Shown: positions 4,552-46,150 of the stretch, piece after piece
Layout: each line of letters starts with the position of its first letter
Numbering within the stretch: the first letter of the stretch is position 1
Source of the DNA: Leptodactylus fallax
Taxonomy: Eukaryota > Chordata > Amphibia > Anura > Leptodactylidae
Assembly: GCA_947044405.1 (NCBI GenBank)
Contig: CAMRHE010000352.1
Location: forward strand, 186,001 to 250,000
Length of the DNA stretch: 64,000 bases
Reading direction: 5' to 3'
Made by a program: the position numbers and the translations under genes
The notes under the pieces: generated by a model
Told to the model about the DNA's origin: nothing
Databases searched by the model: none
The model's input: only the letters and a program-made list of their open reading frames with translations

Positions 4552-4698
4552 TAAAAAATGCATACTCACCTGTCCGAGTTGCTCCGGTGTCCTCCCAGTT
4601 CTTCAGCACAACTCCGGAAGAGACCCGCTGGAGTAAAAGAACCAGGAGGCACAAGAGGACACCGGACCAACGGGGACAGGTGAGTATGCATTTTTTTT
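4552..4698. repeat. Foldback cassette F1 with outward splice-donor motifs
   Basis: The left arm (aaaatgcatactcacctgtc) and right arm (gacaggtgagtatgcatttt) are inverted copies. Each arm carries a consensus-like vertebrate 5' splice site, AG|GTGAGT: on the minus strand at 4570/4569 and on the plus strand at 4679/4680. The intervening 110 bp (4570-4679) is exon-like only by position. This is the simplest of the cassettes discussed in the findings. Confidence 0.75.
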
Positions 4699-4729
4699 TT
4701 TTTTTCCACTGCCGCCACCTGATTTAAAC

Positions 4730-4770
4730 ATTAAAACGGTTGTCCATTTTTGCCTGGACAACCCCTTTAA
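4730..4770. mobile_element. TTAA-type MITE end
   Basis: The sequence gttgtcca...tggacaacccctttaa ends in TTAA (4767-4770) and abuts the CR1 coding sequence, which it truncates. The same CAACCCCTTTAA end occurs at 15510-15519 and 41760-41772, and inverted near 6973. TTAA at the boundary suggests a piggyBac-like non-autonomous element. The partner end was not found, and cassette F1 probably lies inside it. Confidence 0.5.
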
Positions 4771-5965
4771 ACCTTTTTTTCTCCAGATGGAGAGAATGCC
4801 CCCTTGTCTTTTGAGGGGATTTTACATAGAACAGCTTTTCACCATATTTCTTGTATGGGTCATTTATATATTTATACTGGTTTATCATATCTCCTCTTAA
4901 AAGCCTCTTCTCCAGACTAAAAAGATTTAACTCCTTTAGTCTTTCCTCATCCTTTCTATGAACTGGTGCCCAGAACTGAGCTGCATAATCCAGATGGGGC
5001 TGCAACAATGACTTATAAAGTGGTAATATTACATCCCTGTCCTGTGAGTCCATACTCCTTTTATAACAAGACAGTATCTTGTTGGCCTTAGAAGCAGCTA
5101 ATTGACATTGCATACTGTACTTTAATCTATGTGTGGTAAGGTGTACGGCAGAATAGTGGACGGGGTATGCGGAGTGTTAGCCAGCGGCTGGACAGGCCTA
5201 GGTATTTTTGTTTTGTTTGGACACCATTTGTTTTGTGTTTATTTTGGTAAATAAAGCACCATCACCTTTTGAGAAAAACCTGCTGTGTGTGAACATGGTC
5301 ATTGCCGCCCCCACCGTATGAGCTGATCCCTACATATGATATACAAGTACATCCATGTCCTTCCCCACCAGTGACTCTCCCAGCTTTATTCCCCCTAGGA
5401 CATATGCTGAATATGGATTATTTTTACCCAGATGCATAACTTTACATTTATCCACATTGAACCTCATTTGCCATGTGGATGTCTATGTCTGCTTGTATCC
5501 TACATACATCCTCTTTAGACTGTATTGTACTGCATAGCTTGGTGTCATCTGCGAAAAAAATACAGTGCTATTAATTCCATCTTCTATACCATTAATAAAT
5601 AAGTTAAATAACACCGGTCCTAGCACTGAATCCTGGGGTACACCACTTATAATAGGACCAATAGGAGCTGCACTCATTGACCACAAGTCTCTGAATACGA
5701 TCCTTTAATCCAATTACAAGCTATATTTTCCAAGCCAATGGACCTGATTTTACCCATTAAACATCTATGAGGGACAGTGTCAAACACCTTTATAAAGTCC
5801 AGGAACACTATATCCACAGCTTCCCCTCTGTCCAGACTTCTACTCACCTCTTCATAAAGGCAAATCGGTTAGTTGACTTCTGTCAACTTCAGACTTTAGT
5901 AAAACCATGCTGTCTGTCAATTATAATATTACGTATAGTCACATATTCCTGTATGTAGTCGCGTA
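4771..5965 (-). pseudogene. CR1 LINE reverse transcriptase fragment
   Basis: On the minus strand, from 5965 downward, fragments match CR1-type reverse transcriptase. A palm region reads FDTVPH near 5770, [14 protein letters not shown] (5600-5660) is the conserved RT block (usually GVPQGS), and the C-terminal part at 4770-5110 reads KANKIL...YKSLLQPHLDYAAQFWAPVH...LFSLEKRLLRGD. Frameshifts and stops break it, and no 3' UTR remains because a MITE end adjoins at 4770. A 203-bp insertion at 5132-5334 splits it. It was a component of a LINE that would nick and reverse-transcribe at the target; this copy is dead. The clade call is confident. Confidence 0.85.
5132..5334. mobile_element. Solo-LTR-like insertion in CR1, TATG duplication
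   Basis: The segment begins TGTGGTAAGG and ends GATCCCTACA, so it has TG...CA ends. It contains AATAAAG (near 5251), as expected of an LTR polyadenylation signal. It is flanked by TATG at 5128-5131 and 5335-5338. Removing it with one copy of TATG joins the CR1 reading frame without a shift (...HRLKYSMQCQ...), which fixes both borders independently. No second LTR or internal region is present, so it is a solo LTR or a very short element. A 4-bp duplication would suit some LTR families, but I cannot assign one. Confidence 0.7.
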
Positions 5966-6972
5966 AGAGCCCCTCAGAGCCCCTGTAGTCAGCATATATG
6001 CAAGATTTCAGGTAGGCCCTAGGCCCTTCAGTCTGACACTGCCTCCTTCTAATTCACTGCGACTTTGTATAAGGTCAAGTTTAGGCCCAGCTGGCTATTG
6101 ATAAGTCACCCTGTCCTTTGGCTTCCCTGCCAGTGGTACCATATATGAAACAGATATCTAGAGTGGGATGGTCTGCAGATTGTTGGAGAGACCTCCTCCT
6201 AGTCAGAGGCTGAATCATCTCCAAGATGGTGATCTGGAATAAGTACAGTGGCTCTATTTACAGAGGCTGGGCGTCATTTGTCAGTGTATCCTCAAATACA
6301 GCCTTTGCTGGTGTTCCAGGAGTTGCTTTTGGGCTCGATGAAGCAGAGACTCCTGAAGTCAATTCTATCTGACTTCACTTTAGAACTGGAGGGCACGTTA
6401 ACAGTGTACCACAAAATTTTTCTTCAAATTCTGTTGCTGCCAGTGCTACTTGCCACTGATAATGTTGGCATAATAACAACAAAATAAAACAAACAACCTC
6501 ACCATTGCTTCTTCCAATACCAACTTAATGTTGTTGCGACATTCTGCTTCCATAAAGGAATAACCTTTGGTGGCTTTTTTTTTTGGCTTCTTCATCACTT
6601 TTCAACCAGGCACATAGCCACAATTTTTTCTCCAAAATAACAAGTCTATTGCAATTACCAGTTCCCAGAATAGGCTAATTTTTATATAAAGCCATTGCTA
6701 TTTGCGATGTAACCACCATGTGTCTATAAAAAACCATGGGCAAGCACCTTCCCCCAAAATAGGCTAATTTTTGGAACGTTATAAATATTAAAATGCCTAA
6801 AGCCAGGTGGCAGCATAGTGTATGGTTAAATTAGAAGTACAGATTCAATCCACAGCTTAGCATCCGTTTTTCATAGACATGTCAGTGTCATACACTATGT
6901 TTTAAGCCAATTTAAGCTCTAGTTCATACTAAACTTACTTGACCTGAAACAAATCTTTAATTTTGAGGGTTT
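5966..6972. other. Spacer with one hAT terminus
   Basis: At 6012-6047, taggccctaggcccttcagt continuing to ctgacactg matches the right end of the hAT-like element at 40660-40685. The rest (6048-6972) shows no gene or recognisable repeat. The reading frame at 6248-6487 has no recognisable domain. Confidence 0.45.
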
Positions 6973-10212: not shown

Positions 10213-10254
10213 CATGCATGTACCATCCTAACAAACAGAGTATGTTCAGTAGTA

Positions 10255-10394
10255 GTATAATGTTGAACCCTGTTAGCCATTGAAAGTAGTGGAAGAGTGA
10301 AGTAATCAGGCGATAGCTTTTAGAGGCTAACTGAGTATATTTGATGGTAAGCTTTCGGGAGTACTAGCTCCCTTCATCAGACATGGTGTTATAC
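10255..10394 (-). ncRNA. Type I hammerhead ribozyme, Penelope-like context
   Basis: On the minus strand the invariant boxes occur in order. CTGATGA is at 10380-10374; stem II is gggag/ctccc (10373-10357) with a short loop; GAAA is at 10356-10353. Then comes a long stem III region closed by GC/GC and the T-A cleavage dinucleotide at 10275-10274. Stem I pairs GTATA...CCATGT (10394-10381) with ACAGGG...TATAC (10273-10255): TGT/ACA next to the core, then CCA/TGG, then the distal GTATA/TATAC. Hammerheads in Penelope-like retroelements are established. The long stem III loop (about 70 nt) is unusual, so activity is uncertain. A second fragment of the family is at 39098-39166. Confidence 0.6.
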
Positions 10395-10456
10395 AAGAAA
10401 GCTTACCATCAAATATACTCAGTTAGCCTCTAAAAGGTATCGCCTGATTACTTCAC
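10297..10456. repeat. 60-bp palindromic arms around the ribozyme core
   Basis: 10297-10356 and 10397-10456 are near-perfect inverted copies (gaaagcttaccatcaaatat on the right arm), separated by 40 bp that hold stem II and CTGATGA. This suggests two element termini joined head to head. Inverted terminal arrangements are known for Penelope-like elements. Confidence 0.8.
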
Positions 10457-10460
10457 AATT

Positions 10461-11040
10461 CCACAGAGTATGTTCAGTGCATGAATGATTTCTGTTAGGA
10501 GTAAAGGCCAGTACGGCAATTAGAAAGCACAGAGAGCAATACCTGGGAAATGGGTAGTTTTTGCTAGTAAGCAGGCAGTCGCATGCTCCATAGTAAGGAC
10601 CGCCCCCTCTCAGGCCATTGCAAGTTGAAAATGTAATGGTGCTATTGGAGTGCAAATCTTGCAAGAGAGGGCACATATTAGGTGGGTGAAGTCACAGGTA
10701 CAGTGCAGATATTTTATCTGTATGGTTGATCAAGTTTTATAAAAACACCTTTAAAATTCTTGCAGTGCTGGATGCATGTCGGGTAACGCTTGAAGTTGAA
10801 TGTGGCAGCACCCAGTGTTCTGTGGAGGAGTGTCCTGAACTGCTTCCTCCACAGTCCATCTATTTACAGAAGCAATTATTAGTTTCACTACTGTACCTGA
10901 GCAGGGGGCCGTCTGCTGTCCGGTTCTCTATCTCCTGCCTCTTTCATTCTGTTACTGTTAAATATGTATGGGGGTACTAATGGGGAATTATACTGACTGT
11001 GTTTGGGAAGGTTACTAAGGAGCAGACTGTGAGGAGGCAC
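10461..11040. other. Unassigned spacer
   Basis: No gene or bounded element was recognised. The frames at 10419-10676 and 10726-10980 lack recognisable domains. Confidence 0.4.
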
Positions 11041-11045: not shown

Positions 11046-11275
11046 TGGTGCATTATACTGTGTGGGAACATTAATGGGACATACAGTATAATGCTCCTTA
11101 ATGCTCCCCACAATATAACGCTCCTTACTGCCCTCACTCACAGTATAAAGCTCCTAAGTGACCCCACCCACAGTATAATGCCATGTTAATGCCTCCTGCA
11201 CACAGTATAATGCAATGTTAGTCGCCCCCTGCACAGTATAATGCCACGTTAGTGCCACCTCCTCAATTAATAATG
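11046..11275 (+). repeat. Degenerate minisatellite, cacagtataatgcc type
   Basis: About seven loose iterations of cacagtataatgctcctta and relatives occur. The unit resembles the attatgcccc/cagtattatg core of the 31-bp minisatellite elsewhere, but spacing is irregular. It is probably an older or diverged relative. Confidence 0.6.
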
Positions 11276-11701
11276 CTAGGTTAGTAAAGATTTTTTTCCA
11301 AATTTTTCTTGTCTAAACCTGGGGTGCGTCTCATAGTCAGACACATCTTCTTGTCTGAAAAATGCTGTAAATACTGGACGTGTTCAGCTGCTGTTCAGCT
11401 CGGACCTTTGCTTGATGATGGAAGCTAGTCATTTGACCTTTACTAAAAGTAGATGAGTACCCCTGCTCAATTGGCCTTGGCAGTCCATCATGCCTCAGGA
11501 TACCTCATGGTAAAAACTAGTGTCAACTGATGACTTTGGAATAGAAATTTGTTAAAAAGCCTGATGACAACTGATGCATTTTTGCATCAGTTTTGGCATC
11601 AATTGTAAAGACTTAAAGGGAATTTCCAGGCAAAAAATGTTTTGTTTTTTTAAATTTCTGTTAGTGTTATTAATGGGTCAATGAATGCACCCATATACCT
11701 T

Positions 11702-14700
11702 TAATAATAATAATAATAATAATAGTCCTTTAATAGTCCCACAATGGGGAAATTCAGTGTGTTACAGCAGCAAAGATAAGCAGATACAAATACAAATACA
11801 ACATGTACAGGAATATTCCAAGGTGAGAGGCATTACATTGATAGCAGACAGACAGATAGGGCGTAGCAGGGGGGGGGGGGGATTTAACAGGCAGAGAGAT
11901 ATTTCAGTTCTCTGTGTGTAATGATCTCCGCTTAGGTCGGTGTTGGTTGTACAGCCTAACCGCGGTGGGGAGGAAAGACTTCCGATAGCGCTCCTTCTCA
12001 CACCTAGGGTGGAGCAGTCGGTCACTGACAGTACTGCTCAGCGCGATCACAGTCTCATGCATGGGATGGGACTTCTTCTTCTGCATGGAGCTCACCACGG
12101 ACAGTATCCTTCTGTCACCCACCACCTGCACTGGGTCCAGTGGGCTCCCCAGGACAGAGCTGGCCCTTCTAATCAGCTTGTCAAGTTTATTTCTGTCCCT
12201 GGTTGATATACTGCTCCCCCAGCAGGCCACTCCAAAGAAGATGGCTGATGCCACTACCGAGTTGAAGAAAGTTCTAAGAAGTGCCCCCCGGATTCCAAAG
12301 GCTCTCAGCTTCCTAAGCAGGTAGAGCCTGCTGTGGCCCTTCCTGTACAGGGCCTCCATATGATCTGCCCAGTCCAGCTTATTATTAAGGAGCAAACCCA
12401 GGTACTTATAGGTGTTCACAATCTCGATGCCCGTCCCCAGGATGTCCACTGGTTTAGGAGGGCTTCTGCCTTTGCGGAAGTCCACCACCATCTCCTTGGT
12501 CTTCCCCGCGTTAATCTTCAGGTGGTTCCGGTGGCACCAGTCCACAAAATCCCGGTTCAGTTCTCTGTACTCCCTGTCATCATCATCTGTGATGAGACCC
12601 ACTATTGCAGAGTCGTCAGAATACTTCTGTAGGTAGCAGCTGGATGAGTTGCACCTAAAATCTGCAGTGTACAGTGTGAAGAGGAAAGGGGCGAGAACCA
12701 TACCCTGAGGTGCCCCCCGTATTACAGATCACTGTACCTGACACACAGTCTCGGGCTCTCACGTATTGAGGTCGATTTGTGAGGTAGTCTAGGATCCAGT
12801 TGGAGAGGTGGTGGTCCACTCCAGCAAGGCCCAGCTTGTCCCTCAATAACCTGTGCTGTATGGTGTTAAAAGCACTGGAGAAGTCAAAGAACATTATTCT
12901 CACTGTGTTCCCTGGTTTCTCCAGGTGAGACAGAGCCCTGTGCAGAAGATGGATGATGGCATCATCTACCCCAATGCCCGGCCGATAAGCAAACTGGAGT
13001 GGGTCCATAGCGGGGCTCACTAGAGGGCGGAGATGTGTGAGAACCAATCTCTCCAAGATCTTCATCAGGTGGGATGTCAGTGCTACAGGTCTGTAGTCGT
13101 TGAGGTCCATAGGGTGGGGTTTCTTTGGAACTGGTACCACACAAGAAGATTTCCATAATTCAGGGACTATTTCCTGCCTCAGGCTCATATTATACATATA
13201 TGTAATTATACCACACAGCTGGTCCCCACAAGTCTTAATTAGCCTTGCACTGATGTCATCTGGCCCTCCGGCTTTCCTCGCCTTGATCTTTTTCATCTCC
13301 TTCCTCACCTGGGCCCGTGTGAAGGTCAGACTGTGGCCAGATAAAGATGGATTTCTGGATTTACTGGTCTGTTGGGAAGTGGCCGCATGGGGAGAAGTCA
13401 TTGTGGTGGGGGGAGCTGAAGGACATACTGGGGTGGGAGGAGCTGGTGTGTGATCAAATCTGTTGAAGAATAGGTTTAGTTCATTAAGCCAGTTAACATC
13501 TGCCTCAATCTGGCAGACAGACTGTTTATGACCCGAAATTGACTTAAGCCCCTCCCAGACCCCCCTTATGTCTTTTCTTTCCATTTGCTTTTCCATTTTT
13601 TCTTTATAACTGGATTTTCCCTGCCTGATTTGATGCCTCAGCTCCTTTTGTACTTCCCTCAACCCCTCCTTATCTCTTGTCCTGAATGCCATCTTTTTCT
13701 CCTTAAGTAGTGTTTTTATATCAGAGTTAATCCATGGTTTGTTATTGGAGAAGCACCTCACCACTTTTGTGGGTACTGTGTTGTCCACACAAAAATTAAT
13801 GTAGTCCGTTATGCAGTGTGTGAGTCCTTCTATATCTTCCCCATAAGAATCCTGCAGAACTTCCCATGCGGTTGTGTCAAAACAATCCCTCAGAGCCTCA
13901 TCACTCTCCTCGGACCATATCCTCACTGTGCGGGTGACAGCTGGTTCTCTACGTACAAGTGGCTTGTACACAGGTCGGAGATGTACTAGGTTGTGATCCG
14001 ATCTCCCCAGGGGCGGTAGGGCTGATGAGTTGTATGCCTCCCTCACGTTGGCAAAGAACAAGTCCAGTGTTTTGTTGTCTCTTGTGTGGCAGGTTACATA
14101 CTGTGTGAAACTGGGCAGTGTGGATGATGGAGAGGCATGGTTGAAATCACCCGACAGAAGAAAGAGGGCCTGGGGGTGCTGAGACTGTAACTGGCTCAGC
14201 GTGGCTTGTAGGACCTCGCAGGCAGTGTCAGCTTTCGCAGAGGGGGGACATATGCAGCTATCACGATGACATGTGATAGTTCCCTTGGTAGGTAGAAAGG
14301 TCTAATGCTCACAGCTAATAGTTCAATGTCCTTACAGCAAGTTTGATCCTTAATCACAATGTGCCTAGGATTACACCATCTATTATTCACAAACATTGCC
14401 AGCCCTCCTCCTTTCCTCTTACCGCTCTCCCTTGTCCTGTCTGCCCGAAGGAGTTTAAAACCATCCAAGGAGACCAGAGGGTCAGGAGTAACTTCAGTGA
14501 GCCAAGTCTCTGTAAGTAGCATCATGCTGCACGCCCGAAACTCCTGATGCTGCCTGGTGAGCGCTGTTAGTTCATCCATCTTGTTTGCAAGAGATCTCAC
14601 ATTGCCCATGATGATGGAGGGAACAGCTGGTCGGTAACGCCTCTTTTTAATCCTCTGAAGAGTTCCTGCTCTGCATCCCCTCACCCGCTTTTTCTTTCTC

Positions 14701-14862
14701 CAAATCTCACGGGGGGATGTGTGACCAGATGGTATGCCCTCCTGCTGTGCCTCTGAGCTGCAGAATTTCCTCTCTTGTATAGACAAAGGAATTGTCTGCA
14801 TACACAAAAGATCCCATTTTCAAGCAGAACAAAGACAGATAAAAAAAAAAAAAAAAAAAAAA
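11702..14862 (-). mobile_element. LINE of the CR1/L2/Rex1 group, copy A
   Basis: A near-complete non-LTR retrotransposon on the minus strand. The 3' end (left) has an (AAT)n tail at 11702-11723 next to agtcctttaatagtcccaca. The 5' end (right) stops in a poly-A/T run near 14840-14862, lacking the first part of the 5' UTR present in copy B at 21.26 kb. The two copies look nearly identical across the coding region, implying recent activity of the family. The exact clade (Rex1/Babar or L2-like) is not certain from inspection. Confidence 0.85.
11904..14817 (-). pseudogene. APE endonuclease-reverse transcriptase ORF, copy A
   Basis: Likely start ATG at 14817 (MGSFVYADNSFVYTREEILQ), aligned with the start of copy B. 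The endonuclease domain follows (MGNVRSLANKMDEL, LTETWLTEV, then the SDHN motif near 13995). The RT domain lies at 13330-12400 (ARKAGGPDDIS, FDFSSAFNTIQ, KYSDDSAIVGL) and the C-terminus ends at 11904. A working copy would nick DNA and prime reverse transcription. Four breaks relative to copy B fall in homopolymers: a G run near 14711-14716, one at 14242-14247 (6 against 7), and a C run at 12713-12718 (6 against 5) are visible, leaving pieces at 14196-14807, 12655-14061 and 11904-12701. These could be true mutations or run-length errors. Confidence 0.85.
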
Positions 14863-15100
14863 CTCTGTTTTGAGTGATTTCTGGGTGTCTCTGAGAGCTC
14901 CTGGTAACTTCTGCATTTGTTTACATGGTTCAGCTTCCTGCTATGTCACTTCCACACTAACCCCTCTCACCTTACTCCGCCCCTCCTTCCTCTCTCCCTC
15001 CCTTCTCTCTCTCTCCCTCCCATACACCTCCTCCCTGTCTCTTTCGCTATCCCGCCCACTACTAGCCCTTCCCTACCTACTCAACCCCCGATCCCATCAT

Positions 15101-15330
15101 ATACTTACCTCTCTTCCTTCCATGGCTTCTTCCTGCGGGACAGCCCCTCCTTCTATACTGATTCTGCAGGCACGCGTTCTTCTCCCAGCGCTGCTTTTTG
15201 CTCTGCAGCGACGATCCACCTGTAGAGGTGGATTATCGACAGCAGTGCGCAGAGCAGCTCTGGGAGAAGCGGCAGCAGTCAGAAAAGAAGGAGGAGCCAT
15301 CCCGCAGGAAGAAGCCATGGAAGGTAAGTA
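15101..15330. repeat. Foldback cassette F2 with outward splice-donor motifs
   Basis: The left arm atacttacctctcttccttc and right arm ccatggaaggtaagtat, with long inner pairing (catggcttcttcctgcggga against tcccgcaggaagaagccatg), make arms of about 110 bp. AG|GTAAGT occurs on the minus strand at 15109/15108 and on the plus strand at 15323/15324. The enclosed segment is 215 bp. Confidence 0.8.
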
Positions 15331-15795
15331 TGATGGAGTGGATGGGGGGAGTAGTAGTGTCGATCCATTTCTGGAAATGGGGAAACGGATCATCACAGGA
15401 TAATCAGAAAATATGGGTAAATATACATTTTTGATTAATTATGTTATTTAGAAAGTAGGAGGTGGGAGGGTGTTTAGATTAGTGTAGGGATTTCCATTTA
15501 TCCCGGACAACCCCTTTAAGGGACAAAAAAAACTGATACTGATGCAACTGATATATGTGAATGTACCCAAAGTAAACCTATCCGTAAACTGTGTCTTTTT
15601 AATTAACATCATAATGCCTGTGCCATCATTCACACATAGCCCCAAAAGACCTCAGTACAACTCTATCACTGTGCCAGTCTAGGGCCTTTAAGAGGATTTG
15701 ATGCCAAAAGCCACTGAGACCAGCGTGGCAGCCATCTTGGGACAACTGACTGTTAGCTTTGAGTCGTTGCATACATATTGACACTGCACTGTAGC

Positions 15796-16270
15796 CAGTG
15801 GCATAACTAAAGTCTACTGGAACCCGGTGCAAACTTTTGTCCGTGGCCCCCTCCCTAGAGTGAATTCTTGATAGTGGCGGTTACGGGTGCTGCAGCAATA
15901 TCTCTGATACTTGAAAGGGATACAGCTTTAGTACCCACAATTCCAGTTATCAAGAATACAGTGAGTGAGCAGTGCAGTGCCTGGCATGTAAAGAATACTG
16001 GAACAGTATTATGTTCTCCACAGCGGCTCCCACACAGCATTATGTGCTTCACAGTGGCCCCCCCACACAGCATTATGCGCTCCACAGCAGCCCCCACACA
16101 GCAGTATGCACTCTACAGCGGCCCCAACACAGCATTATGTGCTCCACAGCGGCCTCCACAGAGTATTATATGCCCACAGTGGCCCCCATAGAGCATTATG
16201 AGCTCCCAAGAGCCCTCCTCCTAGAACCAGTGAAATTATTATACTTTGGGGTCTCCTCTTTTGTCTGCCC
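15796..16270. mobile_element. hAT-like left end with minisatellite, truncated
   Basis: CAGTGGCATAACTAAAG at 15796 matches the tip of the element at 31580 (CAGTGGCGTAACTAGG). It continues into a minisatellite and attattatactttggggtct (near 16228). The right end was not found; the Tx1-like LINE begins soon after, so the element is probably truncated. Confidence 0.5.
16005..16205 (+). repeat. Minisatellite array A1, about 30-bp unit
   Basis: About seven copies of a unit like cacacagcattatgcgctcc followed by acagcggccc occur. It is related to the 31-bp arrays at 31.7, 40.0, 43.3 and 46.2 kb. Open frames across it reflect the lack of stops in the unit, not a gene. Confidence 0.8.
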
Positions 16271-18869: not shown

Positions 18870-18870
18870 A

Positions 18871-21249: not shown

Positions 21250-24200
21250 TTTTTTTTTTTCCAAGATGGCGCCGCTGAAGTGGCTGCCTGGTCGGCAGCT
21301 CTGAGACCTCTCTCTCTCTTATTTTTTCTTTCTCTGTCTGTTTTTTATCTCTCTACTTAATGGACTTTACACTATGAAGAAATGAAGAAACAAAGACTTG
21401 GAATTGGACCTTTGTGATACTTTTTTTTTGTTTTTATCTGTCTTTTTGTCCTGCTGAAATGGGGACTCTTGTGTCTGCAGGCATTTCTTTTGTCTACACA
21501 AGAGAGAAATTACTGCAGCTTAGAGTCACAACAACAGGGCTGCATACCATTTGCCCACCCATCCCCCAAGAACTCTGGAGAAAGAAAAAGCGGGGGAGGG
21601 GCTGCAGAGCAGGAACTCTTCAGAGGATTAAAAAGAGGCGTTACCGACCAACTGTTCCCTCCATCATTATGGGCAATGTGAGATCTCTTGCAAACAAGAT
21701 GGATGAACTAACAGCGCTCACCAGGCACCATCAGGAGTTTCGGGTGTGCAGCATGATGCTACTTACAGAGACTTGGCTCACTGAAGTTACTCCTGACTCT
21801 CTGGTCTCCTTGGATGGTTTTAAACTCCTTCGGGCAGACAGGACAAGGGAGAGCGGTAAGAGGAAAGGAGGGGGGCTGGCAATGTTTGTGAATAATAGAT
21901 GGTGCAATCCTAGGCACATTGTGATTAAGGAGCAAACTTGCTGTAAGGACATTGAACTATTAGCTGTGAGCATGAGACCTTTCTATCTACCAAGGGAACT
22001 ATCACATGTCATCGTGATAGCTGCATATGTCCCCCCCTCTGCGAAAGCTGACGCTGCCTGCGAGGTCCTACAAGCCACGCTGAGCCAGTTACAGTCTCAG
22101 CACCCCCAGGCCCTCCTTCTTGTGTCTGGCGATTTCAACCATGCCTCGCCATCATCCACACTTCCCAGTTTCACACAGTATGTAACCTGCCACACAAGAG
22201 ACAACAAAACACTGGACTTGTTCTTTGCCAACGTGAGGGAGGCATATAACTCATCAGCCCTACCGCCCCTGGGAAGATCGTATCACAACCTAGTACATCT
22301 CCAACCTGTGTACAAGCCACTTGTACGTAGAGTACCAGCTGTCACCCGCACAGTGAGGATATGGTCCGAGGAGAGTGATGAGGCTCTGAGGGATTGTTTT
22401 GACACAACCGCATGGGAAGTTTTGCAGGATTCGTATGGAGAAGATATAGAAGGACTCACACACTGCATAACGGACTACATTAATTTTTGTGTGGACAACA
22501 CAGTACCCACAAAAGTGGTGAGGTGCTTCTCCAACAACAAACCATGGATTAACTCTGATATAAAAACACTACTTAAGGAGAAAAAGATGGCATTCAGGAC
22601 AAGAGATAAGGAGGGGTTTAGGGAAGTACAAAAGGAACTGAGGCATCTAATCAGGCAAGGAAAAGCCAGTTATAAGGAAAAAATGGAAAAGCAAATGGAA
22701 AGAAAAGACATAAGGGGGGGTCTGGGAGGGGCTTAAGTCAATTTCGGGTCATAAACAGTCGGTCTGCCAGATTGAGGCAGATGTTAACTGGCTTAATGAA
22801 CTAAACCTATTCTTCAACAGATTTGATCACACACCAGCTCCTCCCACCCCAGAATGTCCTTCAGCTCCCCTCACCACAATGACTTCACCCCATTCACCCC
22901 ATGTGGCTACTTCCCAACAGACCAGTAAATCCAGAAATCTGTCTTTATCTGACCACAGTCTGACCTTCACACGGGCCCAGGTGAGGAAGGAGATGAAAAA
23001 GATCAAGGCGAGGAAAGCCGCAGGGCCAGATGACATCAGTGCAAGGCTAATTAAGACTTGTGGGGACCAGCTGTGTGGTATAATTACATATATGTATAAT
23101 ATGAGCCTGAGGCAGGAAATAGTCCCTGAATTATGGAAATCTTCTTGTGTGGTACCAGTTCCAAAGAAACCTCACCCTATGGACCTCTACGACTACAGAC
23201 CTGTAGCACTGACATCCCACTTGATGAAGATCTTAGAGAGATTGGTTCTCACACATCTTCGCCCTCTAGTGAGCCCCGCTATGGACCCTCTCCAGTTTGC
23301 TTATCGACCGGGCATTGGGGTAGATGATGCCATCATCCACCTTCTGCACAGGGCTCTGTCTCACCTGGAAAAACCAGGGAACACGGTGAGAATAATGTTC
23401 TTTGATTTCTCCAGTGCTTTTAACACCATACAGCTCAGGTTACTGAGAGACAAGCTGGGCCTTGCTGGAGTGGACCACCACCTCTCCAACTGGATCCTAG
23501 ACTACCTCACAAATCGACCTCAATACGTGAGAGCCCAAGACTGTGTGTCAGGTACCGTGATCTGTAATACGGGGGCACCTCAGGGTACGGTTCTCGCCCC
23601 TTTCCTCTTCACACTGTACACTGCTGATTTTAGGTGCAACTCATCCAGCTGCTACCTACAGAAGTATTCTGACGACTCTGCAATAGTGGGTCTCATCACA
23701 GACGATGATGACAGGGAGTACAGAGAACTGAACTGGGATTTTGTGGACTGGTGCCACCAGAACCACCTGAAGATTAACGCGGGGAAGACCAAGGAGATGG
23801 TGGTGGACTTCCGTAAAGGCAGATGCCCTCCAAAACCAGTGGACATCCTGGGGACGGGCATCGAGATTGTCAACACCTATAAGTACCTGGGTCTGCTCCT
23901 TAATAATAAGCTGGACTGGGCAGATCATATGGAGGCCCTGTACAGGAAGGGCCACAGCAGGCTCTACCTGCTTAGGAAGCTGAGAGCCTTTGGAATCCGG
24001 GGGGCACTTCTTAGGACTTTCTTCAACTCGGTAGTGGCATCAGCCATCTTCTTTGGAGTGGCCTGCTGGGGGAGCAGTATATCAACCAGGGACAGAAATA
24101 AACTTGACAAGCTGATTAGAAGGGCCAGCTCTGTCCTGGGGAGCCCACTGGACCCAGTGCAGGTGGTGGGTGACAGAAGGATACTGTCCGTGGTGAGCTC

Positions 24201-26685: not shown

Positions 26686-27108
26686 TTTCCACTATATTCT
26701 TTTCTGTCCTTCCTCTCACCCCTCATACTAGCCAGCTCCCTCTTCCCTCCTTCCCCTTCCATTTTCCTTGCAGTTACCCCTCCCCTCACCTTCCATTCCC
26801 CCCCCTTCAGGGGGTGCCTCCCTACTATGAGACATGGTTGCCTCCTATGGAGGTGATATTATGGTACCAATGACTAAGCCCTTTGCGCACGGTCAAGGCC
26901 CTTGGGATAGTCCAGGGTCTCATACATGTCAGTTTTCACATGTTTATGTTAGCGGGCTCATCCCTGCATGGAGATCTGTGACTCATTATTTAGATTCTGA
27001 GATTTTGATACCAATTACTCTGTATGACTATTTTTTGAATACCATTGTCTGTATGTTAAAAATTGAAAAATGTTAATAAAACAGATTTACAAAAAAAAGA
27101 AAAACAAC

Positions 27109-29265: not shown

Positions 29266-30062
29266 CAGGGTTTAACCCTAAGGTGCCTTCCCATGCCAAT
29301 ATTAACCAATTAGTCTCTTTACCCGTGTTTTTTCCAGCCCCTTCCTCTGAAGAGGAGAAAAAACTTCACACACTAGATGTTGTGAGATGTCTCCAGATTT
29401 ACCTCTTACGTACACGTTCCTTTAGGAGAACCGAGAATCTCCTTGTCAACATGTATGGTAGAGACAAAGGTCTTAGGACTTCCAAGCCTACCTTGTCTAA
29501 GTGGATCAAGGAGGCAATCAAAGTATCTTTTTTTGCTCAGGGGTTAGCTCCACCCAAATTTTGTACAGCCCAGTCAACCAGGGCTGTATCAACCTCTTGG
29601 GCTGAGAACCGGGCCTTACTGCTGGATCATATCTGTGCAGCTGCTTCTTGGTCGTCTCACCTAACCTTTGTAAAACATTATCGACTAGATGTTCGAAGTT
29701 CTGTGGCGACTACCTTTGGACAGTCAGTCCTAGGTGTTGTAGAGCAGGGAAACACTCCCTAAGGGAATTACTTACTATATCCCCATATTGTGCTGCTGTA
29801 GGATGTAAGGGAATTGTTGATTATGATGTTAATCTGTTTTCCCTTAGTCCTAACAGCAGCACAAGCTTCCTTCCCTAAACTTAGAAATTTTTACTTTATA
29901 ACTTACACAAGGAGGGAGGTCTCTTTGCCCTATTATAGGGTAGAGTAGTCATGCATATTTTATGTTACTTAAAAGTTTTGCCTGTCCTACCAGCGCACAG
30001 GGGCAGGAATTCCCCATATTGTGCTGTTGTTAGGACTAAGGGAAAAAAAATTTACATCATTA
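29266..30062 (+). mobile_element. DIRS-like fragment, right copy
   Basis: It contains the C-terminal recombinase (29290-29762) and a terminal repeat (29763-30062). The repeat holds the motif ccatattgtgctgctgt directly at about 29779 and 30018 and inverted at about 29845, typical of the complex repeats of DIRS elements. It is inverted relative to the left copy and joins Tc1 sequence at the same position as the left copy (agactatgagaatcattgat). Confidence 0.75.
29290..29762 (+). pseudogene. DIRS tyrosine recombinase, C-terminal part
   Basis: It reads LDVVRCLQIYLLRTRSFRRT, SKPTLSKWIKEAIK, AQSTRAVSTSWAENRALLLD, then HICAAASWSSHLTFVKHYRL, ending ...GVVEQGNTP stop. The family box HxxR is normally AHSTRA; here the His is Gln, so the protein is unlikely to be active even though the tyrosine (KHYRLD) is kept. 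The open frame extends upstream into antisense Tc1 DNA, which is coincidental. Confidence 0.8.
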
Positions 30063-30905
30063 TCAATGATTCTCATAGTCTAGTAGTTCTTCATGTGTTT
30101 ATTGGCTAACTCTATGTGGGCTTTCATATGTCTTGCACTGAGGAGAGGCTTCCTTCGGGCCACTCTGCCATAGAGCCCCGACTGGTGGAGGGCTCCAGTG
30201 ATTCTTGACTTTGTGGAACTTTCTCCCATCTCCCTACTGCATCTCTGGAGCTCAGCCATAGTGATCTTTCGGTTCTTCTTTACCTTTCTCACCAAGGCTC
30301 TTTTCCCACGATTGCTCAGTTTGGCTGGACAGCCAGGTCTAGGAGAAGTTGTGGTCATCCCAAACTTCTTCCATTTAAGGATTATGGAGGCCACTGTGCT
30401 CCTAGGAACCTTGAGTGCTGCAGAAATTCTTTTGTAACCTTGGCCAGATCTGTGCCTTGCCACAATTCTGTCTCTGAGCTCCTTGGGCAGTTCCTTTGAC
30501 CTCGTGATTCTCATTTGCTCTGACATGCACTGTGAGCTGTGAGGTCTTATATAGGCAGGTGTGTTCCTTTCCTAATCAAGTCCAATCAGTTTAATTAAAC
30601 ACAGCTGGACTCCAATGAAGGAGTAGAACCATCTCAAGGAGGATCAGAAGGAAATGGACATCATGTGAGTTAAATATGAGTGTCACAGCAAAGGGTCTGA
30701 ATACTTATGACCATGTGATATTTCAGTTTTTCTTTTTTAATAAATTTGCAAAAATATCTACATTTCTGTTTTTTTTTCTGTCAAGATGGGGTGCTGAGTG
30801 TACATTAATGAGAAATAAAATGAACTTTTTTGGTTTTAGCAAATGGCTGCAATGAAACAAAGAGTGAAAAATTTAAAGGGGTCTGAATACTTTCTGTACC
30901 CACTG
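30063..30905 (-). pseudogene. Tc1-type transposase, 5' half (right arm) with terminal repeat
   Basis: ATG at 30526 (minus), MSEQMRITRSKELPKELRD, with the helix-turn-helix (GQGYKRISAALKVPRSTVAS), PRPGCPAKLSNRGKRALV and [18 protein letters not shown], to KHMKNY at 30080. The outer terminal repeat ends ...CTGTACCCACTG at 30905 next to TA. With 28571-29265 it would make most of one transposon, lacking about 30 codons around the first catalytic Asp. Confidence 0.85.
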
Positions 30906-31579: not shown

Positions 31580-31689
31580 CAGTGGCGTAACTAGGAATGT
31601 CTGGGCCCCAAGGTGAATATTTGACATGTCCCTCCCCCCCCCCCGGCAACCGCCCCCTCCCCCCTACGCACAAACGCATTTCTGGCATC

Positions 31690-31912
31690 CTGCACACACT
31701 ATTATTCCCCATAGTGTCCACTACACACACTATTATGCCCCATAGTGGCCCCTGCACACACTATTATGCGCCATAGTGGCCGCTGCACACACTATTATGC
31801 GCCATAGTGGCCCCTGCACACAGTATTATGCTCCATAGTAGCCTCTGCACACAGTATTATTCCCCATAGTGGCCCCTTCACATAGTATTATGCCCCATTG
31901 TGGACCACCCAT
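31690..31912 (+). repeat. Minisatellite array A2, 31-bp unit
   Basis: About seven copies of cacactattatgccccatag plus tggcccctgca occur. It is the same unit, orientation and right-hand junction (ccacccatgaactattatta-like) as array A4 at 43.3 kb. Confidence 0.9.
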
Positions 31913-31930
31913 GAACAATTATTATATCTT

Positions 31931-32262
31931 TTCAGACCCCAGAGTATAATGATTGATGACCCAGGAGAGGATGCAAACATAAAAAACAATGTTACTTACC
32001 TTTCCCTGGCTCCGGTGCACTCCCCGTTACTTTCGGCCTTCATCAATGCTGGACCAGACGTCATGTGAGCCAGGAGGCATGCTTTGCGACACATAATGAC
32101 GCCAGCCCCGCCCACGTGACGTCTGGGACGTCGCCAAGGAGGCGAAGACCGCCGAAGCACAGGAGAGGTAAGTAACATTGTTTTTTATATTCCCTCACCT
32201 CCCCTGGGTCTCCAAATCATTATACTCCATGGTATGAAAAGGCCCCAGAGTATAATGATAGC
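31931..32262. repeat. Foldback cassette F3 with outward splice-donor motifs
   Basis: Outer arms of about 80 bp run from cagaccccagagtataatga inward to aacaatgttacttacct, and return as aggtaagtaacattgtt to tatactcc. AG|GTAAGT lies on the minus strand at 32000/31999 and on the plus strand at 32167/32168. The enclosed 168 bp is GC-rich with gacgtcatgtgagcc and cacgtgacgtct near the centre. Confidence 0.85.
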
Positions 32263-34420: not shown

Positions 34421-35595
34421 CTGAAAATCATGCAATAAAGAAGACAAATATATGCAAACAATGTAAAACAGAACGATAGTAAAAATACAGACCTTAAGTC
34501 TGGGACAGACTGCACCCTATCTCCAAGGTCCTGACACAGCGTCCTCCTTTCCACCTTTCTGCAACCTCCCACCTGTCATAATATTTCTTAATAACATATA
34601 GACTTTTGATCAGCTAATCTCCACATGGTCCACTGCAGTAATGTCTGCCATGGCAGAAATCCTGGCTGGCTAATTAAATGACCACTAATTGCATTATCTC
34701 CTGCAGACTGGTTCTTCCTCTTTAGTCTGCACATTTCCCCTGATACCAATTACACAGGACTTCCTATTTGCACATTTTAATTACACTGAAGCTCTAGCAT
34801 AGACAATACACAAACGACATCTCCTAATCACACCCATGAATGAAAAACTTCTTATCCCTATAAGAAAATTCCTACATTAAACACAAAACTATGGCACAGG
34901 ATAACATACATATTTCATCATAGCTGGTATCCTATTATTGCACATCTGTGCTCCTTTCCTACAAAAAAAAAAAAATAGTTAACGTTTCTTAATGCAGCTT
35001 AATAAATTAGTCTCATATTTCTGTATTTGCTTTACTTAACTCATCAAATATTCATCTGCCACAGTTGTTGCCACAGTCATTATTTTTCTACTGTTTCCTG
35101 AAAAGTAAGTTATTAATATCTGCAGGATCCTTGGGGAGTCTGATACATCTCTGTTTTCACTCAACATCTTGCTTTTTTGCTGCTGGCTAATCAATCGTCA
35201 TCATTGAAAAGGTAACCTTCCCAATTTGCAGGCATACTGGTGATACTGGACACATATGTCGCCCATCAGTATGTCACTTGTGTCAATTAGTCATGAAATA
35301 TTCATCCACAGCCAGCTATTTGAGCCCCTGACATGGTCACTTTGTTATTTTACATATTTTTTTCCACTGTATTAAGTGGCTGGCACATATGGACATGATA
35401 GGACCTCTTGCACTGCATATCTGATCAATAGCCATCTCAAGATGATTACACACCTCACAGCATAATAGTTGGTCTTTCTTCTGTAGTTCATGGACTAAGT
35501 ACAAGTGTAAGACAATGAACAATGATGAAAGTCATTATCACAAATGGATTATTTAGAAATGACTTGGATAAACACAGAGTAATCTGGAATATCTC
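34421..35595. other. Unassigned AT-rich spacer
   Basis: No ORF with a recognisable domain and no bounded repeat were seen. Confidence 0.4.
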
Positions 35596-35962
35596 TTCAG
35601 ACCACAGAGTATAATAAGTGGAGGGCGAAGAGAGGTGACAAACATAAAAAAACAATGTACTCACCATTCCACGCTCCACAGCCACTCTGTTCTCTTCGGG
35701 CGCTTCTGCCTGTAGTCAGCGACTGCTCATTGAGTCTCAGGGGTCACGTCGCGTCATTATGCGTACTGATGTCAGACGCAGACGTGATCCCTGAGGCCCT
35801 GTCAGCTGACTTCAGGCAGAAGCGCCCGAAGAGCACACAGCGGCTGTGCAGCGTGGAATGGTGAGTGACATTGTTTTTTATGTTTGTCACCTCCCCCGGG
35901 AGCTTCGCTTATTATACTGGGGTCTGAAGAAATCCCACAATATAATAATAGCAGTTTCATTT
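35596..35962. repeat. Foldback cassette F4 with outward splice-donor motifs
   Basis: Long arms (ttcagaccacagagtataat ... tgtactcaccattccacgct and agcgtggaatggtgagtgac ... tactggggtctgaag) pair over about 170 bp and include gggcgcttctgcctg/caggcagaagcgccc. TG|GTGAGT occurs on the minus strand at 35665/35664 and on the plus strand at 35860/35861, enclosing 196 bp. The centre has gtcacgtcgcgtcattatgc and cagacgtgatccc. No minisatellite is attached here. Confidence 0.85.
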
Positions 35963-39427: not shown

Positions 39428-39699
39428 ATTGCAGACTCTCAACTTTAATTTGATGGTATTCACATCCAAATTGGAGGAAGGGTTTACAAATGACAGTTCT
39501 GAAATATGTAGCGACCTCTTTTTCAAGGGAACAAAATCAGGGTCAGACTGGCCCATCGGGGGACCGGTGAATCCCCCAGTGGGCCTCGTGCCTTTAGGGG
39601 GCACTTCCGGACCTCCACTGCCATTTTTTTTTGATAGGCAGTGGAGGTGCGGTTAGACCCCCATTCACTTACCTCTCCGCGCTCCAGGCCATGGCTCAC

Positions 39700-39866
39700 T
39701 GTGCATCGCACATGACGTTGCGATGACATAATGTGCGATGCACAGGTCCCAGGCTGCTGCGGGAAGAGGAGAGGCCGCGAGCAAGGGCGGAGTGAGGGAA
39801 GTGATGCTGCCAGGTTCACTCCGATTTTGCGATCCGGTTTTAATAACCGTATCGCAAAATCGGATC
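39700..39866. repeat. Two strong hairpins
   Basis: First, ctgtgcatcgcacat and atgtgcgatgcacag pair perfectly over 15 bp around acgttgcgatgac (39698-39743). Second, ccgattttgcgat-c-cggtt and aaccg-t-atcgcaaaatcgg pair over about 18 bp with one mismatch (39821-39864). Confidence 0.85.
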
Positions 39867-39892
39867 GCAAAATATTGTGTGTGACTTCTCGG

Positions 39893-40370
39893 GAGCATAT
39901 TATACTTTGTGGGGCAATTGTAGAGCATTATACTGGGGGGGACTGTGGGGAGCATATTATACTGTGGGGGACCACTGTGGAGCATTATACTGGGGGAATC
40001 CCTCTGGGCAGTATATTATACTGTATGGAGGCCATTGTGGAGCATGTTATACTGTGTTAGGCCACTGTGGAGTATTATACTGGGGGGGCACTGTGGGAAG
40101 CATATTATACTGTATGGAGCATATTATATTGTGTGGGGCTGCTGGGGAGAATATTGTATGTCTGGGGCCACTAAGAGGTAGTATGCTGTATGGAGCCTTA
40201 TATACCATGTGGGTCCACTATGGGTGGCTCAGGTGAGCATTTTATACAGTGTGGGTCCACTGTGGAGTATTATATACCATGTGGGGAAAATGTGGAGGGC
40301 TCAGGGGAGCATTTTATACCGTGGAGCATTATATACCATGTGGAGCATTATACTGTGAGGGGGGGGTCAA
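39893..40370 (-). repeat. Minisatellite array A3
   Basis: About 15 degenerate copies of gagcattatactgtgtgggg plus ccactgtg occur. This is the opposite orientation to arrays A1, A2 and A4. Units vary between about 27 and 33 bp. Confidence 0.85.
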
Positions 40371-43070: not shown

Positions 43071-43290
43071 GGTACCTGTGTAAGCCCTGTGACCGCTTCT
43101 CTGTTTACATAGTGCCATTCATCTCATAGCGGCCATGTAATGTAACTACAGTCTTGTCCTATACATGTCTATGTGACAAGGCTGGAATTACATCACACGG
43201 TCACTATAAACAGACAGCGTATGATATAAACAGGTGCCATAACCCCTGTTTATAGCGCTCCATTTTCACACACTATAATGTTCCACAGCA

Positions 43291-43890
43291 GCCCCTGCAC
43301 ACGGTATTATGGCCTACAGCGGCCCCTGCACACAGTATTATGGCCCATAGTGGCCCCTGCACACGTTATTATGGCCCGAAGCGGCCCCTGCACACTGTAT
43401 TACTGCCCGCAACGGCCCCTGCACATAGTATTATGGCCCGCAGTGGCCCCTGCACACTATATTACGGCCCGCAGTGGCCCCTGCACACTGTATTACTGCC
43501 CGCAAAGGCCCCTGCACACAGTATTATGGCCCGTAGTGGCCCCTGCACACGGTATTATGGCCCGCAGTGGCCCCTGCACACTGTATTACTGCCCGCAACG
43601 GCCCCTGCACACAGTATTATGGCCTGCAGTGGCCCCTGCACACTATTTTACGGCCCGCAGTGGCCCCTGCACACTGTATTATGGCCCGCAGCGGCCCCTG
43701 CACACGGTATTATGTTCCATAGTGGTCCCTGCACACGGTATTATACTCCATAGTGGCCCCTGCACACGGTATTATGCCCCATAGTGGCCCCTGCACTGGT
43801 ATCATGCTCCATATTGGCCCTTGCACACGGTATTATGCTCCATAGTGGCCCCTACACACGGTATTATGCCCCATAGTGGCCCACCCATGA
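43291..43890 (+). repeat. Minisatellite array A4, 31-bp unit, about 19 copies
   Basis: Units start gcccctgcacacggtattat and end ggcccgcagtg; successive starts at 43291, 43322 and 43353 give a 31-bp period. Variants recur in order: units 4-7 resemble units 10-13 (ctgtattactgcccgcaacg first), indicating a six-unit higher-order repeat. All three frames are open, giving apparent proteins of 137 and 168 residues with a 31-residue period; these are not treated as genes. Confidence 0.95.
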
Positions 43891-43903
43891 ACTATTATTA
43901 TAT

Positions 43904-44212
43904 TCTGGGGTCTTTTTAGACTCCAGAGTATAATGATCAGAGACGCAGGGGAGGTGAAAAACATAAAAACAAGTGTAACTTACCTTTACTGGACATCGGT
44001 GCACTCCCTGCAGCTTTCGGCCCTGTGTACTTACTCACAGACGTCATGTGATCAGGCCGACGTCGCGACCTGATGACGTCACAAGAGGGCCGAAGCCTGC
44101 TCGGAGTAACACCGCAGGAGGTGAGTAACAATGATTTTTATGTTCTCTCACCTCCCCTGGGCCTCCTATTATTATACTCTGGGGTCTGAAAAGACCCCAG
44201 AGTATAATAATA
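43904..44212. repeat. Foldback cassette F6 with outward splice-donor motifs
   Basis: The arms include aaacaagtgtaacttacctt and ggaggtgagtaacaatgatt. AG|GTAAGT lies on the minus strand at 43984/43983 and AG|GTGAGT on the plus strand at 44120/44121, enclosing 137 bp with TGACGTCA at 44074-44081. The right flank carries attattatactctggggtct-gaaa-agaccccagagtataataat (44171-44214), a perfect 20-bp palindromic module. Confidence 0.85.
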
Positions 44213-44230
44213 GTAGTATTTGAGGCCCGC

Positions 44231-44345
44231 AGCCTCACTTACCGATCCCCGCACTTGTTCACAGCCGCCTCGCTTCCCCCTTCTGCTATGGTACGCAGAA
44301 GCGGAGGCAGCCACGAGCAGGCGCGGGGGTAGGTAAGTAAATAGG
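44231..44345. repeat. Foldback cassette F7 with outward splice-donor motifs
   Basis: cagcctcacttaccgatccc gives CG|GTAAGT on the minus strand at 44243/44242, and cgggggtaggtaagtaaata gives AG|GTAAGT on the plus strand at 44332/44333. They enclose 90 bp with an imperfect palindrome (cgcctcgcttccccc/gcggaggcagc). The homologue in the right copy is at 45801-45910. Confidence 0.7.
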
Positions 44346-44477
44346 CTGTTACCTGCTGGGGTTACTCCAGCAAGTAACGGCCTATTTATATATATATATT
44401 AAAAAAAAAAAAAGTTATCCTCACCTACCTGTAATCCCTTAATGGAGACGTCGTCTTTTTGTCCGCGACGTCTGCGT

Positions 44478-44530
44478 CTCAGCATAGGAGGCACGATGAC
44501 GTCATTGTATCGCTGCCTGCACTGAGATAC
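44478..44530. repeat. Hairpin centred on TGACGTCA
   Basis: ctcagcataggaggcacgatg and the inverse cattgtatcgctgcctgcactgag pair around the perfect octamer TGACGTCA (44497-44504), a consensus CRE/ATF site. The homologous hairpin at 45624-45675 holds the octamer at 45646-45653. Confidence 0.75.
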
Positions 44531-44722
44531 GGATGTCTCATAAGCCAGCCCAGGACAGGCCCCGCTCAGCTTCTTTTTTTTTTTTTTTTTTTTTTTTTTA
44601 ATGCGGCCTGCCCTGGGCTGGTTTACCTTAGATAAATAGTAAATATGCCGCCCTCCAGACAGTGATGGATAGTGCCGCCTGAGGCGGCCGCCTCACTTCG
44701 CCTCATTAGAGGTGCGCCCCTG

Positions 44723-45447
44723 GTCATACCATCTCTTGCAACAACAGCTGCGTCACATCAGGTACTAGGTGCAGTGTCAGCATGACTGGTACTACAACCC
44801 TTGTCTGCACCTGCCTGGTACATGACCCTTGCACATTTACATTCATCAAATATTTTTAATGAACAATTTGGAATTCGTCTCTGTCAAACTAAAATGGCCA
44901 CTGCCAGTAAATTATTATACTCTGGGGTCTCTTAAGACCCCAGAGTATAATATCTGGAGGCCCAGGGGAGGTGACAATAAAAAAAAAAAAAACATACAGA
45001 AATGCAGCTTTTTTTTGTTGCAGATTTTTGCTGCGTTTTTTTGAGCCAAAGCTAAAAATGTTTTTTCTTCACCTATTAAATCTATATGGAAAACGCAAGT
45101 GTTTGCTCAGCAAAAGTTTTCTGCAGCATTTTTTTTCCGCAATGTGTGGATGGGATTAGCCAGAATCTCATTCATTTTGCTGGTACTGTAAAATGCAGTG
45201 TTTTTTTCTGCTGTGTTTCCACAACAGGAAAAACACTGTTTTTAGCCACTGTCACCTCTGTTACCGCTTCTCTCACTGTTACCTCTGTTACCTCTTCTGG
45301 GCTTCCTCATGGTGTCTGGCTCTCTGTGTCTTCCTCCTGATGGCATCTAGTGCTCTTCTGTGATGTTATGCGCCCATGGTCACTGCTGAGGTCTGTGATA
45401 GGGCCTCAATGGTGATATGGGCACGCTGAACATTTTGATGTCATGCA
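44723..45447. other. Spacer between the inverted copies
   Basis: It contains another copy of the palindromic module (ttattatactctggggtct-ctta-agaccccagagtataata, 44910-44952) and T-rich sequence, with gctgcattttttttccgc-like stretches. No gene was recognised; the frames here lack domains. Confidence 0.5.
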
Positions 45448-45800
45448 CAGGGGCGCACCGCTAATGAGGTGAAGTGAGGCAGCCACCTCAGGCGGCACTG
45501 TCCGTCACTGTATGGGGGGCGGCATTTTTACTATTCAATGTAAACCAGCCCAGGACAGGCCGCTTAAAAAAAAAAACAGAGCTGAGCGGGGCCTGTCCTG
45601 TGCTGGTTTACGAGACGTTGCATCTCAGCGCAGGCGGCGATACAATGACGTCATCACGCCGCCTACGCTGAGACACAGACATCGCGGACAACAAGAGGAG
45701 GAGGCGGCTGCATCAAGGCATTGCAGGTGAGTATAACTTTTTTTTATATATAAATAGGCCGTGACCTGCTGGAGTATCCCCAGCAGGTCACGACCTATTT

Positions 45801-46150
45801 ATTTACCTACTCCGCGTCTGCTCATGGCCGCCTCCGCTTCCCCCTTCTTCTATGGGACGCAGAAAGGGAAGTGAATGCCGCTGTGAGCGGCCGCGGGCAT
45901 CGGTAAGTTAGGGGAGGTGAGGTAACATAAAACCAGTGTTACTCACCTCCTGCGATCCGATGTAACTCCGAGCAGGCTTGAGGCCTCTTGTGACGTCAAA
46001 AGGTCGCGTCGCCAGCCTGATCACGTGACGTCTGTGCGCAATTAAACAGGGTCGAAAGCTGCAAGGAGTGCACCGGTGTCCAGGATAGGTAAGTAATACT
46101 GATTTTTATGTTTGTATTCTCCCCTGGGTCTCCAATCATTATACTCTGGG
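45801..46150. repeat. Foldback cassettes F7' and F8 in the right copy
   Basis: F7': AG|GTAAAT on the minus strand at 45807/45806 and CG|GTAAGT on the plus strand at 45902/45903. F8: AG|GTGAGT on the minus strand at 45947/45946 and AG|GTAAGT on the plus strand at 46088/46089, enclosing 142 bp with TGACGTCA at 45991-45998. They are the inverse homologues of F7 and F6. Confidence 0.8.

Follow-up and report, generated by a model that had tools for sequence, protein, structure and literature searches.

Can a repeat start spliced transcripts in both directions from one symmetrical unit? This question arises from a 64-kb stretch of the genome of Leptodactylus fallax (Amphibia; Anura), which comprises positions 186,001 to 250,000 of contig CAMRHE010000352.1 in assembly GCA_947044405.1 and is called the window here. 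The window contains short foldback elements, referred to as cassettes, in which two inverted arms enclose a centre. Each arm carries a motif resembling a 5' splice site (donor) that reads away from this centre, on the minus strand at the left and on the plus strand at the right. The part of an arm between centre and donor is called the exon side, the part beyond the donor the intron side. An earlier note on this DNA had listed eight of these cassettes and had suggested that their centres behave like symmetrical first exons, perhaps with a bidirectional promoter. The analysis revealed that the foldback cassettes with outward donors are real and non-random.

Outward donors on both arms of the cassettes

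All eight listed centres are bounded by outward donor-like motifs, at most one base away from where the earlier note had placed them. The first G of the donor GT is located at 4569-/4680+, 15108-/15324+, 31999-/32168+, 35664-/35861+, 43983-/44121+, 44242-/44333+, 45806-/45903+ and 45946-/46089+. Donor strength was scored with a position weight matrix for 5' splice sites, which was built from approximate frequencies and has a maximum of about 12.6. In six of the eight cassettes both donors score 10-12.6. The claim that each arm carries a consensus-like outward donor therefore holds for these six, but not for the pair 44243/44332 and 45807/45902, in which three of the four donors (44242-, 45806- and 45903+) are weak and score below 9.

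The number of donor pairs was compared with 40 Markov simulations, counting outward pairs spaced 50-260 bp. Seven outward pairs score at least 10, compared to a simulated mean of 0.7 (maximum 3). One of them, 44151-/44333+, lies outside the listed cassettes. At a score of at least 9 there are eight pairs against 2.2 (maximum 6). The 15 outward pairs with a score of at least 8 fall inside the simulated range (mean 9.7, maximum 17), and the excess is therefore confined to strong sites. Inward pairs with a score of at least 10 are also more frequent than in the simulations (3 vs. 0.55, maximum 2), and all three span neighbouring cassettes.

In addition, the foldbacks of the window were listed mechanically, using E-value and score cut-offs that we chose, which gave 23 foldbacks outside tandem arrays. 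Outward donors with a score of at least 9.5 on both arms were found in 5 of these 23, inward ones in none. The tail probability of the outward count is 0.0002 if copies are treated as separate and 0.013 if the three copies in this list that belong to the family F1, described below, are counted as one.

Cassette families and the large foldback at 43071-46949

Based on arm homology, the cassettes at 32000, 35665, 43984 and 45947 belong to a single family, F1. The cassettes at 44243 and 45807 form family F2, and those at 4570 and 15109 represent F3 and F4, respectively. Two cassettes were found beyond the original list, namely F5 (39672-39790) and the half-cassettes C (donors 44428- and 45727+). 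F3 resembles the F1 arm at 31999- (z score 5.4 on the exon side and 3.4 on the intron side), the other two F1 arms tested being not clearly alike. In these comparisons F4 does not resemble any other family (all p values above 0.1). The intron side of F5 aligns with that of one F1 arm (z 6.4), as does C with one F1 arm (z 3.5), and therefore full independence of the families is not established.

The donor marks a border of homology in both families with several copies, since conservation changes sides there. Across the eight donor-anchored F1 arms, aligned without gaps, identity is 0.34-0.44 at positions -40 to -2 and 0.92 at -1 to +6, followed by 0.61-0.79 at +7 to +20 and 0.52-0.63 at +21 to +40. 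The only variable base between +1 and +6 is +3, which is A or G in every arm. F2 shows the reverse: the exon sides of its arms are homologous (z 6.2), the intron sides are not (z 0.6). A search with an F1 arm pattern gave no match in viral and other genome contigs, from which the genome of the window itself may be excluded.

F3 (4553-4696) is a foldback with the outward donors 4569- and 4680+, both CAG/GTGAGT (the slash marks the start of the donor GT). F4 (15077-15357) is a foldback with outward donors GAG/GTAAGT at 15108- and AAG/GTAAGT at 15324+, and its arms differ by an 8-bp indel beside the donor. The first F1 copy, F1a (31928-32241, donors 31999- and 32168+), contains half-sites of the cyclic AMP response element (CRE) at 32058 and 32117, with CACGTGAC at 32113. 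F1b (35591-35933, donors 35664- and 35861+, both ATG/GTGAGT) is the F1 copy with the greatest symmetry on the exon side and has no exact CRE half-site. In F5 the donor GAG/GTAAGT at 39672- is intact (score 11.6), the right donor is decayed, and TGACGT occurs at 39713.

All other cassettes are located in a large composite foldback (43071-46949), of which 43071-44158 aligns inverted to 45910-46949. The aligned arms show 77-80% identity, and each arm holds a tandem array of 31-bp units together with one cassette each of F1, F2 and C. The left arm contains the array (43291-43882), followed by F1c, F2a and C. F1c (43891-44214, donors 43983- and 44121+) carries the full CRE TGACGTCA at 44074. F2a (44242-44333) has the weak donor TCG/GTAAGT at 44242- and TAG/GTAAGT at 44333+. 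The left half-cassette C (44424-44560, minus strand) has the donor CAG/GTAGGT at 44428- beside TAG/GTGAGG at 44424-, with a full CRE at 44497. In the right arm the order is mirrored. Here, the half-cassette C (45590-45727, plus strand; donor CAG/GTGAGT at 45727+, full CRE at 45646) is followed by F2b (45806-45903), both donors of which are weak (GTAAAT at 45806- and TCG/GTAAGT at 45903+). F1d (45946-46089, donors 45946- and 46089+; full CRE at 45991, TCACGTGA at 46021) and the inverted array (46178-46702) come next. The pairs at 44.0/46.0 and 44.3/45.9 kb, which had been taken as homologous, thus occupy mirror positions within the two arms of this larger foldback. The accompanying estimate of about six independent loci was too high, since four of the listed loci belong to F1 and two pairs mirror each other. 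The listed loci perhaps go back to two to four independent origins.

With its long terminal inverted repeats and internal tandem repeats, 43071-46949 shows features of foldback transposons. A further 31-bp array is located directly left of F1a (31689-31903) and resembles the arrays of the large foldback. Because arrays of a related unit adjoin F1a and recur in each arm of 43071-46949, the whole is read as a composite foldback family. A target-site duplication was not seen by eye in the flanks of 43071 and 46949, the outer ends being not fixed by other copies.

Several other origins of the motif were considered and rejected. The sequence ACTTACCTG resembles the 5' end of U1 small nuclear RNA (snRNA). 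A U1 snRNA pseudogene is disfavoured by the Rfam scan of the window, which gave no gathering-level match, and by a comparison by eye with the start of U1, in which only the first bases are alike. A short interspersed nuclear element derived from a tRNA was rejected as well, as no tRNA was found in the window. The motif could also be the terminus of a miniature inverted-repeat transposable element (MITE) of the form ACTYACC...GGTRAGT. In F1 and F3, however, the inverted homology runs past the motif, and by eye it does so briefly, with an indel, in F4. F2 is the only family in which homology stops at the motif, and the terminus reading stays for F2 alone. By eye, no duplication flanks the motif except the self-complementary ATGCAT in F3.

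Kozak-like words (GCCATGG or GCCATGA) place an ATG 7-20 bases before the donors of F4 (both arms), F5 and F2b (15114-15324, 39676-39695, 45818-45830). A coding first exon beginning at these words was rejected, because by eye they are not in a common reading phase and the window contains many such words (16 matches on one strand and 24 on the other).

Promoter-like centres and the weighing of the readings

The centres of the cassettes differ strongly in composition from the rest of the window. Their GC content is 0.53-0.67 in eleven centres, compared to 0.44 in the window, and the ratio of observed to expected CpG is 0.58-1.07, compared to 0.34. Together, the eleven centres contain 118 CpG in 1540 bp, whereas 5000 random placements gave a mean of 25.8 and a maximum of 57. 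The same is seen next to donors with a score of at least 10: the adjoining 90 exon-side bases contain on average 6.5 CpG at the 20 sites in cassette intervals, compared to 0.96 at the 25 other sites. High CpG and GC are features of CpG-island promoters, but the centres are much shorter than a standard island. All four copies of the full CRE in the window lie inside cassettes. In the centres, 13 matches to the CRE half-site were found (full sites counted twice), compared to 0.74 and at most 5 in 2000 dinucleotide shuffles. A palindrome (45596-45702) has the CRE of the right half-cassette C in its middle, where some self-complementary word must occur.

The two arms of the large foldback also allow a comparison of CpG retention. 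In the F1 centre 9 of 13 CpGs are common to both arms, compared to 4 of 12 for F2, 6 of 17 for C and 6 of 30 for the array. For all cassettes, 20 of 44 are retained vs. 12 of 46 outside (p 0.08); the p value of 0.007 for F1 alone was picked post hoc. For the F1 centre only, this hints at low germ-line methylation. CpG decay was rejected as proof of promoter activity, since it is weak evidence and F1 alone stands out.

Exon-like features are found next to the donors. In 19 arms, the 40 exon bases that precede the donor have a mean purine content of 0.68 (0.55 to 0.78), compared to 0.55 at 42 other donor-like sites. The mean T content of the intron side is 0.37 vs. 0.26, with enrichment in F1, F3 and C only. 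RNA folding was calculated for the eight cassettes of the families F1 to F4. In read-through RNA the mean unpaired probability of the donor is 0.00-0.35. For RNA started from the centre, this probability rises in 13 of 16 cases, stays the same in one and falls in two.

As the best single account of these features, we tentatively propose, at somewhat less than even probability, that the cassettes are parts of non-autonomous foldback-type DNA elements with short divergent promoters and outward first exons. Each cassette would be a module of such an element, consisting of a CpG-rich centre and exon-like stretches with an outward donor at each end. The centre may act as a small divergent promoter for RNA polymerase II, of the CREB/ATF type in those cassettes that contain a CRE. 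Transcripts initiated there would leave in both directions, bear a donor, recruit the U1 small nuclear ribonucleoprotein and be spliced to any downstream acceptor. Read-through RNA coming from outside would contain both arms and fold into a hairpin which hides the donor, and therefore an insertion within a gene would do little harm. Any palindrome gives such masking of a donor; in the folding model, the donor of the cassettes would become partly conditional on initiation inside the element. It can be speculated that the element profits in the germ line, where its chromatin would be open or its transcripts stable. A fuller version seems rather unlikely as a whole: a vertebrate foldback complex with reusable symmetrical promoter-and-first-exon cassettes, masked by their palindromes, whose exon and intron modules are swapped at the donor, so that a portable two-way starter would result, which seeds spliced transcripts on both strands at any site of insertion. 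If the cassettes do give rise to spliced RNA in both directions, they would supply a foldback-rich genome with new first exons, antisense RNAs and new genes from a mobile source. They would also provide a natural test of whether U1 sites flanking a promoter stabilise transcription in both directions. Promoter directionality is currently explained by U1 snRNA sites and polyadenylation signals, and U1 binding near promoters is reported to favor elongation (PMC11230626).

Several findings weigh against the proposed two-way promoter and first exon. In F1, the intron side contains, at a depth of about 15-24 bases, a run of T with ATGTT that is conserved as strongly as the donor. Selection on the donor therefore cannot be told apart from a general conservation of the arms. 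The column table of 19 arms, all of which have G at -1 and A or G at +3, is biased, the arms having been chosen for their donors. Homologous copies raise the counts of outward donors, and at family level the probability is the 0.013 given above. The initial idea of a symmetrical first exon with a bidirectional promoter is partly supported, as it agrees with the CpG- and CRE-containing centres and the purine-rich exon sides. It agrees less well with F3 and F4, whose centres show only moderate CpG (each at about the top 5% of windows), and an exact scan of the centres for CRE half-sites found none in F1b, F2, F3 and F4. All four full CREs lie within the large foldback, where they form two homologous pairs. 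When no word is preset, the 7-mer most in excess is ATGACGT, which occurs in 4 of 8 groups (F1a, F1c/d, F5 and C) vs. 0.11 expected. In shuffled centres, however, the best 7-mer was present in 3.5 groups on average and in as many as 5, and a count of 4 groups alone is therefore not exceptional. The CRE half-sites are located about 40-75 bp from the nearest donor, which leaves little room for a start site and an exon. CpG decay in the F2 and C centres resembles that of ordinary methylated DNA. The T content of the intron side is just 0.21-0.29 in F2, F4 and F5, and RNA started from the centre leaves the donor more than 0.5 unpaired in just 3 of 16 cases. Finally, 13 of 18 cassette sides have a polyadenylation signal at a distance of less than 1 kb in the outward direction.

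It is possible, if doubtful, that the donor-like motif is merely the inner end of transposon arms of common descent which read AGGTRAGT and have no function in splicing. The arms would then be terminal or subterminal inverted repeats that are needed for transposition and common to the elements, with the centres replaced. Shared ends with unlike bodies are known, as Tetris and DAIBAM have common ends of their terminal inverted repeats (PMC4079207). The conserved F1 block extends beyond the donor through the run of T with ATGTT and the CACCTCCCC stretch, as would be expected of arms bound by a transposase. Moreover, the families are not clearly unrelated, considering the likeness of F5, C and F3 each to one F1 arm, and the family-level excess of donors (P 0.013) is modest. 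F4, however, is unlike the other families and still carries the same motif in the same orientation, and the homology of F2 on the exon but not on the intron side is the opposite of F1. Common descent of the arms also does not explain why the centres are rich in CpG and contain CREs.

Under another, distinctly unlikely reading the cassette is an internal exon in both directions. Each strand would offer a branch point, a pyrimidine tract, an AG, an exon and a donor, and an intronic insertion would be spliced in either way. The branch-point pattern YTNAY fits the reverse complement of the donor, CTTAC or CTCAC, and a pyrimidine tract arises on each strand as the complement of the purine-rich exon end. 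Using a 3' splice-site matrix with approximate frequencies, the best scores in nine cassettes have a median of 7.25, compared to 4.3 in random segments. 11 of 18 strand-readings lie above the 75th percentile of the null (6.4), the best of them in F3, F4 and F5, and the missing promoter signs in F3 and F4 would be accounted for. Part of this score excess follows automatically from the purine-rich exon ends, however, and the F1 acceptors score 1.6 to 8.1, mostly near the null. Furthermore, the read-through hairpins hide the donor, and Alu exons are less readily recognized if their 5' splice site lies in a stable structure (PMC2639721). Chance combined with selective reading was already disfavoured and is highly improbable. 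Donor-like words are frequent, and any such word occurs twice in an inverted repeat; 25 of the 45 sites with a score of at least 10 lie outside the cassette intervals, and the outward pairs with a score of at least 8 stay within the simulations. Yet the cassette intervals, which make up 4% of the window, hold the other 20 of these 45 sites and 11 of the 16 sites with a score of at least 11.5, and strong inward donors on both arms are found in none of the 23 foldbacks.

The proposed divergent promoter with outward first exons has partial counterparts in known systems. Antisense promoters of long terminal repeats (LTR) and L1 splice into host genes and work mainly in one direction per unit. They likewise are mobile promoters followed by a splice donor, but the donor of the cassettes is mirrored, so that both directions would be served. 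MITEs share the short inverted arms and several related copies per window with the cassettes, the arms of which, in contrast, carry donors where arm and centre meet. Alu exons arise mostly in one orientation, whereas the cassette donors are found on both strands. CRE sites are common in bidirectional CpG-island promoters, and the Drosophila FB element is a foldback transposon of a plan similar to 43071-46949. Alu exonization resembles the cassettes in that splice sites carried by a repeat depend on RNA structure (PMC2639721). Bidirectional CpG-island promoters have the same CpG-rich, divergent architecture (PMC2777200; PMC5930751), and those of the host can be hijacked by transposons inserted beside them (PMC2777200). 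In the cassettes, however, the promoter-like unit is located within the repeat and has only about 90-215 bp. Galileo (PMC3688188) is a further foldback transposon of similar plan. Tetris of D. virilis shares with 43071-46949 the long inverted arms with a tandem-repeat domain and a variable middle without apparent coding (PMC4079207). In contrast, 43071-46949 carries outward splice-donor cassettes with CpG-rich centres; the main text on Tetris contains neither "promoter" nor "splice". Literature searches, in which subscription papers were mostly outside the coverage, gave no description of comparable cassettes among the matches listed.

Repeats around the cassettes

The window is repeat-rich animal DNA, with numerous foldbacks and with arrays whose units measure about 31 bp. 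Fragments of mobile elements include reverse transcriptases and pieces of transposases which match Tc3-type HTH, DDE_3 and BED-finger models. Besides the three arrays mentioned above, arrays of about 30-31 bp are located at 11083-11285, 16003-16206 and 39887-40119, and the units of all six arrays seem to be related by eye. The stretch 43267-43388 aligns with 16064-16186 at 74%. The donor cassettes adjoin several of the arrays. The array at 1955-4419, left of F3, is of a different kind, with periods of 70 and 116 bp and many inverted repeats.

A mini-hairpin, TATTATACTCTGGGGTCT...AGACCCCAGAGTATAATA, occurs at 43892-43937 and 44166-44211 beside the F1 cassettes and again at 44911-44952. The foldback at 10289-10464, with arms of 84% identity, has inward donor-like sites scoring 8.8 on both arms, which is opposite to the cassettes. 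An element with reverse transcriptase is present in inverted copies (11868-14715 and 21563-24420) of about 2.8 kb, which are 96-98% alike in the pieces listed and about 7-11 kb apart. The sequences at 27100-28253 and 29622-30776 form a further inverted pair of about 1.15 kb with 95.6% identity, which by eye appears to carry a Tc1-type transposase.

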